A stretch of DNA of 17,709 nucleotides from Campylobacter sp. Lineage in GTDB: Bacteria > Campylobacterota > Campylobacteria > Campylobacterales > Campylobacteraceae. Below are positions 14,649-16,436 of the stretch, piece by piece; within the stretch, counting starts at the first letter, position 1, and each line of letters starts with the position of its first letter. The translations under genes were made by a program, and so were the position numbers. Location: positions 1 through 17,709 of the forward strand of contig JAGAZK010000157.1 in the NCBI GenBank assembly GCA_017940085.1, given 5' to 3'. The notes below the pieces were generated by a model. That model saw only the letters and a program-made list of their open reading frames with translations. It had not been told where the DNA came from and did not search any database.

Positions 14649-15371
14649 CTAAAATTTGTAGTTGTATCCTACAAACACTCCCATATTCGTAATCTTGTGT
14701 TTGGTTTCTTGTCTTATAATTCCTATTGTGGCAGTATTTTCTTGATTTTGATCAAAATTTGTTTGATCTATTTTAAAGCCAAACTCAATCTCATTATTTT
14801 GATCTATTTCATAAATACCGCCGATTTTAGCTCCATATATAAAGCCACCATAATTAGTTTTTAAATTATTAAAACCAGAAGGGTGTTGAAAATTATCTTC
14901 TAAAACAATATTTGAAACACCAGCAAAAGCTCCCAAAATTCCTTTAAAATCAAGCCCAGCAAGATTAAATTTAGGCGTCCAATCCCCGCCGACAATTAAA
15001 TTATAAGTATCCCATTTGTATTCTTGTGTTTCAGTAGCAGCATAAAATTGTTGCTTATCTTTTGCTCCTAAAACGGCATTAAACTTAGTATAAATTCTCC
15101 ATAAATCAAAATCATAACCAAATTTAAGCCCAATTCCAAAAGAGCTATCTTTGTAATTATCGGACAATGTATTAATATTTATTCCATTTTCAATTAGTTT
15201 ATATTTAAAATTATATTTTGAATTAAAATTATATTCGCCATCAGCTCCGATAAAAAGACCATTAGCACACGCACTGCTGATTATACTGCTTACCAATACT
15301 GCACCAAGAGCAAATTTATTAAATTTACTCTTACAAACGGCATTTTTGCCACCAAATTTACGATTTTTCAT
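14649..15371 (-). CDS. Outer-membrane beta-barrel protein, paralogue 1 of 3
   Basis: The 240-aa product has an unusually long, basic N-terminal region (MKNRKFGGKNAVCKSKFNKF) before the hydrophobic signal core ALGAVLVSSIISSACA, cleavage being likely before NGLFIG. The mature part alternates amphipathic strands with loops and ends in GYNYKF; a C-terminal Phe is the signal for outer-membrane assembly. Blocks shared with the two upstream paralogues are 'FGYDFDLWRIY', 'GGDWTPKFN', 'YGAKIGGIYE...EIEFGFK' and 'NMGVFVGYNYKF'. Function is unknown; small barrels of this size act as porins, adhesins or structural proteins. The ribosome site AAAGGAAA precedes the ATG at 15371. It has its own 384-base upstream region holding a G9 tract, so expression may vary. 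Dispersed repeats lie on both sides of it. Confidence 0.85.
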   Translation of the reverse strand: MKNRKFGGKNAVCKSKFNKFALGAVLVSSIISSACANGLFIGADGEYNFNSKYNFKYKLIENGININTLSDNYKDSSFGIGLKFGYDFDLWRIYTKFNAVLGAKDKQQFYAATETQEYKWDTYNLIVGGDWTPKFNLAGLDFKGILGAFAGVSNIVLEDNFQHPSGFNNLKTNYGGFIYGAKIGGIYEIDQNNEIEFGFKIDQTNFDQNQENTATIGIIRQETKHKITNMGVFVGYNYKF

Positions 15372-15420
15372 AATATTTCCTTTGAAATAAATTTACTACT
15401 AAATTTTTCACCAAATTTAA

Positions 15421-15448
15421 GATACTTCGCCAAAGGCTCAGTATGACA
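15421..15448. repeat. REP-like palindromic repeat, copy 2, in the leader of OMP paralogue 1
   Basis: On the minus strand it reads TGTCATACTGAGCCTTTGGC and continues GAAGTATC. ATACT pairs with AGTAT and GCC with GGC around a TTT loop, leaving a GA/GA internal mismatch. It shares GCTCAGTATGACA with 14298-14310 and GATACTTCGC with 15636-15645. Confidence 0.6.
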
Positions 15449-15496
15449 GCTAAATTTAAACTCAAATTTACTAAATTTAGTAATTTTCAAAGTATT

Positions 15497-15502
15497 ATTC
15501 TA
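15497..15502 (-). promoter_or_regulatory. -10-like box directly after the G tract (OMP paralogue 1)
   Basis: The minus strand reads TAGAAT at 15502-15497, immediately downstream of the G9 tract, followed by AATAC. It would give a leader of about 115 nt to the ATG at 15371, including the REP-like repeat. Tentative. Confidence 0.4.
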
Positions 15503-15511
15503 CCCCCCCCC
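15503..15511 (-). repeat. G9 homopolymer tract (C9 on the plus strand)
   Basis: Nine consecutive Cs on the plus strand, read as G9 in the direction of the OMP genes. Poly-G tracts of 8-11 are the typical phase-variation sites of Campylobacter. This one lies outside any open reading frame I trust, 132 bases upstream of the OMP paralogue 1 start. Confidence 0.9.
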
Positions 15512-15535
15512 ATTAAAATTAGCTTAAATTGCGTT

Positions 15536-15633
15536 AAATTTTTGAAATTTTTTGAAAAAATTTAAAATTTGAGTAAATTTGGGAGAAAATTTGAATAAAT
15601 TTAAAGCAAATTTGATTAAATTTACGCAAATTT
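15536..15633. promoter_or_regulatory. Helically phased AAATTT tracts upstream of OMP paralogue 1
   Basis: AAATTT begins at 15536, 15545, 15558, 15565, 15575, 15587, 15597, 15608, 15618 and 15628. The mean step is 10.2 bases and the last six copies are spaced 12, 10, 11, 10 and 10. Short A/T tracts in phase with the helix bend DNA. The block lies upstream of the G tract and the -10-like box. Confidence 0.5.
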
Positions 15634-15667
15634 AGATACTTCGCTGTCGCTTAAGTCGATGTTAGCA

Positions 15668-15711
15668 AAGCAGTGGCTAACAAAATGAGATAGATTTTCT
15701 TGAATTGTGTG
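15668..15711. repeat. 44-bp dispersed repeat, copy B
   Basis: Partner of 14461-14504 (35 of 44 identical by hand alignment). It is preceded by a degenerate REP-like segment GATACTTCGC (15636-15645) and overlaps a small stem, GTTAGC (15661-15666) with GCTAAC (15675-15680). Confidence 0.65.
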
Positions 15712-15712
15712 T

Positions 15713-15747
15713 AAATTTGGGCTAATCAAAGTTAGTAGCCCAAATTT
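15713..15747 (-). terminator. Terminator of OMP paralogue 2
   Basis: AAATTTGGGCTA (15713-15724) and TAGCCCAAATTT (15736-15747) are perfect 12-bp complements around 11 bases, just past the stop at 15756 on the minus strand. The AAATTT in the arm supplies the T-rich side. Confidence 0.7.
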
Positions 15748-15755
15748 TGACAAAT

Positions 15756-16436
15756 TTAAAATTTAAAATTATACCCAGCGTATAGTCCTACGCTATTTCT
15801 TTTTATACCTTTCATATTCATTGAAATGTCAGATGATACTATAATATCGTCTTTATCGCCGTATTTAACGGTATCATATTTGACACCAAAATCTATTTCA
15901 TGACGCCTAGCAAATGTAATAATCCCACCAATTTTTCCACCATAAACAAAACCATTTTGCCTGATTGTTCTTTCAAATTCGCTTATAATTCCGCTTGTTG
16001 AATTAGTATATGACATATCGGTATTTAATACAGAATACCCTACATAAGGTCCAACAACTATTTTAAATTTGCTATTTATCTCTGGTGTCCAATCAGCTCC
16101 GATTACAAAATCTAGGCTCTCATTATCTATTTCAAAATTTTGATATTGGGTAGTTGTTCTGCTAGAATATTCATAATCTGTGCCACTATTGTAATTAAAA
16201 GCTCCATAAGCTCGCCATAAATCAAAATCGTAGCCAAATTTAACGCCCATAAATGGAGTAATTTTAGAATCGCTCTCTGTATAATAAGTGCCCAAATAAG
16301 TTATTTTAGCATTTTCTTCTGCTTTTACAGGCTTGAAATTTATTCCTAATTGCCCACCTACAAAAAATCCATCAGCTAATACGCTACTTGCCAAACCTAC
16401 CACAACAGCCACAGCTACGCTAAATTTGCTTATCAT
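15756..16436 (-). CDS. Outer-membrane beta-barrel protein, paralogue 2 of 3
   Basis: The 226-aa product has a signal peptide (MISKFSVAVAVVVGLASSVLA, then DGFFVGGQLG). The body is strand-rich, with 'FGYDFDLWRAYGAFNY', 'IGADWTPEIN', 'YGGKIGGIITF...EIDFGVKYD' and terminal 'SVGLYAGYNFKF', i.e. the same blocks as its neighbours and a C-terminal Phe. I chose ATG 16436 over the adjoining GTG 16439, because AAGGAG then sits five bases upstream. It has its own terminator (15713-15747). The distinctive segments between the shared blocks (for example the Tyr/Thr/Ser-rich stretch after 'NYNSGTDYEYSSRTTTQYQ') differ strongly among the three paralogues, as expected of surface loops. Specific function unknown. 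Confidence 0.85.
   Translation of the reverse strand: MISKFSVAVAVVVGLASSVLADGFFVGGQLGINFKPVKAEENAKITYLGTYYTESDSKITPFMGVKFGYDFDLWRAYGAFNYNSGTDYEYSSRTTTQYQNFEIDNESLDFVIGADWTPEINSKFKIVVGPYVGYSVLNTDMSYTNSTSGIISEFERTIRQNGFVYGGKIGGIITFARRHEIDFGVKYDTVKYGDKDDIIVSSDISMNMKGIKRNSVGLYAGYNFKF

Follow-up and report, generated by a model that had tools for sequence, protein, structure and literature searches.

The G tract that lies upstream of an outer membrane protein (OMP) gene of Campylobacter sp. is best read as part of a promoter, and the same arrangement recurs ahead of most members of an OMP paralogue family. We consider it probable (roughly 0.75) that slippage in this tract alters the length of the spacer between the -35 and -10 elements and thereby grades promoter output, gene by gene, across the OMP repertoire. 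The switching mechanism itself is already known, and it is its deployment over most of a paralogue family that is of interest here. The window analysed is a stretch of 17,709 nucleotides (contig C130) from a draft assembly of 1.5 Mb in 268 contigs; tract lengths are those of the assembly consensus and, as the draft is 83.6% complete, copies of the promoter module may be missing from our count.

Architecture of the predicted promoter region

The original prediction placed nine Gs directly before TAGAAT in a non-coding gap of 384 bases upstream of an OMP gene, and both the sequence and the list of open reading frames (ORFs) bear this out. Nine Cs on the plus strand at 15503-15511 are G9 on the minus strand, and TAGAAT (15502-15497, minus) adjoins them directly on the 3' side of that strand. 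The gap is bounded by the OMP gene at 14649-15371 (minus) and, on the other side, by the next OMP gene, which ends at 15756; no ORF of at least 60 aa was found within it. The tract is the sole run of seven or more Gs or Cs in the window, which contains three overlapping 7-mers of G or C against 0.21 expected, a number reached by 1 of 200 dinucleotide shuffles. The prediction had overlooked the other copies of the module and a conserved TTTAAG (15528-15523) located 20 bases 5' of the -10 box; the order on the minus strand from 15528 to 15497 is TTTAAG-CTAATTTTAAT-GGGGGGGGG-TAGAAT. The promoter described for C. jejuni has a -10 of TATAAT and a -35 of TTTAAGTnTT, with 15-19 bases between this 10-mer and the -10 (PMC3824568). 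Because TTTAAG opens this consensus, on the strength of which it presumably acts as the -35, the G tract would fall in the -35/-10 spacer. The features of the region are as follows.

15523..15528, minus strand: TTTAAG, putative start of a Campylobacter-type -35 element, present in 9/9 copies in this genome and matching the published C. jejuni -35 TTTAAGTnTT (PMC3824568)
15512..15522, minus strand: CTAATTTTAAT, constant 11-base part of the spacer, near-identical among the copies in this genome
15503..15511, minus strand: G9 tract, putative variable part of the spacer (G9 in 7/9 copies, G10 in 1/9, A+G8 in 1/9)
15497..15502, minus strand: TAGAAT, putative -10 box, identical in 9/9 copies; TATAAT, TAAAAT or TAGAAT in relatives
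15372..15496, minus strand: leader of 125 bases, with a start site predicted from the -10 at about 15490
15468..15483, minus strand: perfect 16-base palindrome TTACTAAATTTAGTAA just past the -10, kept in 6/9 copies (alignment, by eye)
15420..15447, minus strand: dispersed repeat GTCATACTGAGC...GCGAAGTATCT within the leader (genome search, exact matches)
15378..15383, minus strand: AAAGGA, ribosome-binding site read from the sequence, comparable in 8/8 copies with a gene
14649..15371, minus strand: OMP gene (ORF) of 240 aa, predicted eight-strand barrel with a signal sequence, no Pfam or NCBIfam family above cut-off

This arrangement is best read, as first proposed, as phase variation of transcription and not of translation: the tract lies outside the ORFs, between a Campylobacter-type -35 and a -10, and takes the same position ahead of 8 of 12 paralogues and of OMP genes in congeners. 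Translational phase variation would involve a coding G tract, and here 125 bases plus the -10 box separate the tract from the ATG. A scan of 15350-15760 for sigma-70 promoters and terminators with an E. coli-type consensus did not pick up the G-tract promoter, a miss that is expected for a Campylobacter-type -35 and equally expected if there were no promoter at this site. The tract might instead belong to a leader transcribed from a promoter further upstream and act in RNA, for example as a small-RNA target like that of Helicobacter tlpB/RepG, and a G repeat in the leader is indeed a known mode in Helicobacter (PMC8295292). However, a -10-like box follows the tract immediately in every copy in this genome, the start codon lies only about 28-50 bases past the box at most congener loci, and no Rfam family was found in the window, so that we hold an action in RNA to be extremely improbable.

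Two further elements of the leader deserve mention. The palindrome TTACTAAATTTAGTAA is possibly an operator, or a mere by-product of AAATTT repeats; AAATTT occurs at 168 sites in the window against 61 expected (2.7-fold over-represented), the maximum of 200 shuffles being 80. The leader repeat (GTCATNCTGAGC...GCGAAGNATCT) has eight exact matches in the genome (window 15420-15447 and contigs C19, C33, C35, C45, C253, C114 and C204), six of which lie within about 130 bases up- or downstream of a module copy.

The three OMPs encoded in the window have signal-like N-termini and C-termini of YNYKF or YNFKF. The structure predicted for the product of the gene behind the tract is an eight-strand barrel (mean pLDDT 81, pTM 0.72; residues 1-35 poorly defined), for which Foldseek matches in the PDB include OmpA, Ail, NspA and OmpX at TM-scores of about 0.28-0.58, modest values that place the protein in a fold class without assigning it further. 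Pfam and NCBIfam scans returned no family above cut-off, and as a single barrel of 240 aa whose Pfam Autotransporter match (E 0.013) stays below the cut-off, the protein does not qualify as a capC-like autotransporter. Public data also contain a protein with 96% identity (P0001).

Module copies across the paralogue family

The 21 overlapping G9 9-mers of the genome resolve into 18 separate runs (nine or ten Gs each), where about 0.29 such runs are expected in 1.5 Mb from the base composition of the window; runs of this class are thus not due to chance. The module TTTAAGCT-N4-TTAAT-G9-TAGAAT is present in nine copies: 8 of the 18 runs sit in it, and one more copy, with A+G8, was added by DNA search. 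A protein search with the OMP gave 13 genome matches, which we counted as 12 loci because the gene on C253 is split over two frames. The module lies upstream of eight of these loci, on the coding strand, its -10 standing 83 to 268 bases before the ATG; it is missing at C201, at C215 and at the window's other two OMP genes. For the remaining module copy, on C33, no gene is seen because the contig stops 29 bases after the -10. The broken paralogue on C253 (L016, G000:C253:2887-3598) loses its frame after codon 117 and may be a pseudogene, a variant or an assembly error. Elsewhere in the genome, two G9 tracts (L013 and L015; G000:C186:8637 and C238:13608) occur in near-identical coding context of glycosyltransferase type, as judged by eye, and are probably ordinary frameshift contingency loci.

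The distance from TTTAAG to the -10 is 20 bases in eight of the nine copies, even where an A replaces a G, and 23 in the C19 copy, which has an extra GT together with G10. Among the eight copies with genes, mean identity is 0.84 for the promoter with the tract omitted and 0.60 for the coding sequence (first 700 bases, fewer for C35), and the promoter value is the higher one in 28/28 pairs. Ungapped identity around the module has reached background level by about 80-100 bases on the upstream side and by 40 bases on the downstream side, and in gapped alignment similarity returns in the last part of the leader and in the signal sequence.

The high promoter identity (0.84) and the exact G9 in seven of nine copies speak for a fixed, non-switching tract, with G9 shared among the copies through recent duplication or gene conversion. 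Against this, tract lengths among the relatives examined range from G7 to G13, and the strand, position and partner box of the tract are conserved between genera, and we judge a fixed tract to be very improbable. A fixed length in relatives was also the outcome that the original prediction had named as counting against itself; lengths instead vary between species and between paralogues, though most copies in this genome are alike. Expression tuned by tract length, as first suggested, is still what we infer.

Occurrence in related genomes

Sixteen genomes of the genus were searched with the pattern TTTAAGN{5,20}GGGGGGN{0,14}TANAAT, in which TTTAAG is preselected and the spacing is free; it gave 33 rows in 12 of the 16 genomes, compared with two for the reversed pattern. 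Outside the genome under study there are 23 sites (24 rows minus one site listed twice), with a spacing of 20 in seven and with TTTAAG at only 11-12 in five. Downstream of the genus sites are ORFs for OMPs, for an autotransporter that was confirmed (L113) and for others judged autotransporter-like by eye; the remaining products include a GTPase of the dynamin family, a 451-aa protein whose start is lipoprotein-like, proteins of about 70 aa whose starts are signal-like, and one protein of 320-340 aa. Length differences are seen between homologous loci whose flanks are conserved: the OMP loci L097 and L099 have G9 (G014) and G8 (G008), the autotransporter-like loci L113 and L120 have G7 (G001) and G8 (G008), and L094 and L096, which share their upstream flank and have the tract directly before TATAAT, have G8 (G006) and G9 (G001). 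The next ORF at L094 is the dynamin-family GTPase (Pfam), a candidate for a phase-variable gene whose product is not a surface protein. The longest tract among the relatives examined, G13, is at L025 in another genus. Across 73 unique non-ORF sites (75 minus two that are ORF-internal), G7 occurs at 4, G8 at 15, G9 at 39, G10 at 9 and G11 at 6, a distribution drawn from searches that mostly demanded at least six to eight Gs.

At the family level, G8 followed by TANAAT is present in 81 of 153 genomes. By our own tally over the per-genome table, the 131 genomes that belong to five genera contain 263 matches, compared with 42 of the reversed pattern; neither pattern occurs in the other 22 genomes. 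We inspected 30 loci in four family genomes. Long proteins that share a signal-like start lie downstream of six of the eight loci in G075 and of seven of the eight in G041. In G093, OMP-like proteins follow three of the seven loci, and Pfam supports one of these three (L145, the one tested). Pfam found no family for the one G075 protein and the one G041 protein that were scanned. Few genomes of the order have the module in its strict form: there are 16 matches in 7 of 398 sampled genomes, eight of these matches being in the genome under study, and none for the reversed control. In named genomes, where the search again preselected TTTAAG and left the spacing open, the strict form was found in 17 stretches: five from Campylobacter, including C. 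estrildidarum, C. aviculae and one C. jejuni isolate, three from Helicobacter sp., six from uncultured Helicobacteraceae, two from Sulfurovum and one from Sulfurimonas; Campylobacter sp. RGIG9945 (yak rectum) is also among these genomes. The spacing is 20 in 13 of the 17 stretches, 19 in two and 23 in two.

Tentatively, and at slightly less than even odds, the module may be a slippery-spacer promoter of constant design (TTTAAG, about 11 bases, G run, -10), carried as a portable cassette by the Campylobacterota, that in this lineage was spread, or kept uniform, over an expanded OMP family. Most of the family would then switch independently, and a clone could form hundreds of OMP combinations without a dedicated regulator; G075, G041 and G093 would do likewise with other surface-protein families. 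No similar DNA was found among plasmid records, and two matching stretches in viral contigs were judged to be chance, neither having a G8 run before a -10. C. jejuni locus L139 was considered as capC but not accepted as such, the flanking ORFs of the 8-kb locus being of cueO, nspC and fdhA type by eye; no tmRNA was found at this locus, nor any Pfam family in the available 505 aa.

Proposed mechanism and relation to known systems

From the position, order and repeated occurrence of its elements, the G9 tract would be the part that varies within the spacer between the -35 and -10 of a putative sigma-70 promoter driving the OMP gene. Replication slippage would add or remove Gs, as suggested by the class of tract, by the length differences among copies and relatives and by the length variation published for Campylobacter capC and in reads of Helicobacter canadensis. 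With each G, TTTAAG would be displaced from the -10 by one base more or less, which is about a tenth of a turn of the helix, and by analogy with porA and tp0126 RNA polymerase would then use the promoter better or worse, giving a graded level without a frameshift. With a module copy of its own, each of the eight paralogues would have its level set independently, yielding a combinatorial OMP repertoire. Slippage could thus change many surface-protein levels independently and, if the model is true, a whole OMP family is diversified with no dedicated regulator involved.

Promoter tracts that make transcription phase-variable form an established class, which has been defined and counted in Campylobacter with PhasomeIt (PMC6321876; review PMC8355987). 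Campylobacter phase variation mostly involves G tracts in ORFs, and intergenic tracts are a minority whose mode of action is little described in the text available to us from these sources (PMC6321876, PMC8355987). The closest case in the genus is capC, which has a poly-G tract in its putative promoter; among strains of C. jejuni the tract is most commonly G9, the shortest being G4 and the longest G10 or more (PMC7168839). There the tract length did not track intact versus broken genes, and that paper left the effect on expression untested. The likeness to capC is one of description, and capC is an autotransporter whereas the protein here is a small OMP. In mechanism, the closest cases are porA of Neisseria meningitidis and tp0126 of Treponema pallidum. 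In porA, a poly-G tract likewise lies between the -35 and -10 of an outer membrane protein gene, and variants with 11G, 10G and 9G differ in expression level (PMC3639595). The same order of elements, TTTAAG, 11 bases, G9 and TAGAAT, is present in the window and in 9/9 copies of this genome, TTTAAG taking the place of the -35 by inference; porA is, however, one gene rather than most of a paralogue family, it has a different -35, and its switching is demonstrated where ours is deduced. In tp0126, which encodes an OmpW homologue, poly-G also separates the -35 and -10 and output is best at one spacing, and several Treponema paralogues (tprE, G and J) have promoter poly-G tracts (PMC7864442). The 8 of 12 OMP loci described here make up a multi-paralogue family that would work in the manner of tprE, G and J, with no homology to the tpr genes implied; Treponema differs in being a spirochaete with unrelated promoters and a smaller gene set, and in that expression was measured there. 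Helicobacter canadensis is a further relative, with promoter-associated poly-G tracts that vary in length in reads (PMC2823697); other genes are concerned, and the likeness lies in promoter association. In the related bacterium Helicobacter pylori, a slippery tract tunes the promoter of the adhesin gene sabA gradedly; unlike the present case it is a T run beside the -35 that works through alignment with upstream elements (PMC4081817). For Campylobacter, neither the TTTAAG/G-tract/-10 layout nor an OMP family carrying it was found in the literature searched, subscription papers and supplements lying outside that search. A promoter class whose layout can be defined lends itself to direct searches and tests, and among the copies and relatives spacers of different lengths occur as a natural series, which bears on the open question of how important the weak -35 is in these bacteria.

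The putative -35 element and spacer length

Recounted from TTTAAG, the published C. jejuni spacers of 15-19 become 19-23, and the spacing of 20 given by G9 corresponds to 16 in the published counting; tracts of G8 to G12 should therefore be usable, and shorter or longer ones weak. Changing the -35 to consensus about doubled promoter activity in C. jejuni and deleting it lowered activity threefold (PMC3824568), and a displaced -35 should thus modulate output rather than abolish it. Differential RNA-seq of C. jejuni gives another picture, in which about 89% of promoters have A/T periodicity and an extended -10 without a clear -35 (PMC3656092), so that spacing to the -35 may matter less than supposed. 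The tract could accordingly slip within the promoter and yet act through the shape or melting of the DNA next to the -10, where a stiff G run would replace the T-rich or TG extended -10, or through the phasing of upstream A/T tracts, rather than through distance to the -35. In Treponema tprL, G-run instability in the -10 is thought to be responsible (PMC7864442), and the alignment mode of sabA (PMC4081817) likewise fits an action of this kind. Since TTTAAG is nevertheless present in 9/9 copies, and its spacing of 20 is kept in 8/9 even with an A in place of a G, we regard such an action as unlikely and favour the effect of spacer length.

Sites chosen without regard to TTTAAG bear on both readings. 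Twenty-four unique upstream regions were selected by G8+TANAAT alone, from the 30 loci (50 sites listed) after removal of the ORF-internal L169 and L171 and of four with repeated upstream sequence. In 11 of them a -35-like TT..AG[CT] precedes the tract by 4-22 bases, against a mean of 3.7 and a maximum of 9 in 500 shuffles, a result flattered by the motif having been picked after the sites were viewed. The other 13 have no recognised -35, which favours an action by shape or phasing.

Pairs of TTTAAGYT and TATAAT without a G run were collected from five congeners (G001, G004, G006, G008 and G014), eight of 141 rows being removed for a G7 run. A spacing of 11 is found in 28 of the remaining 133 (reversed control 3/91), and a spacing of 22 in 20/133 (13 distinct sequences; control 9/91), which is a weaker excess. 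A spacing of 20 lies inside the C. jejuni range of 19-23, yet it shows no peak among these pairs (2/133; control 5/91). G9 as the optimal length was thus not upheld, since the G-less pairs favour 11, perhaps 22, over 20. A best spacing of 22 would make G11 the high state and leave G9 at a low or middle level; if the G run alters twist, a spacing of 20 may be best. The spacing of 11 is about half of 22, and the two positions are one helical turn apart.
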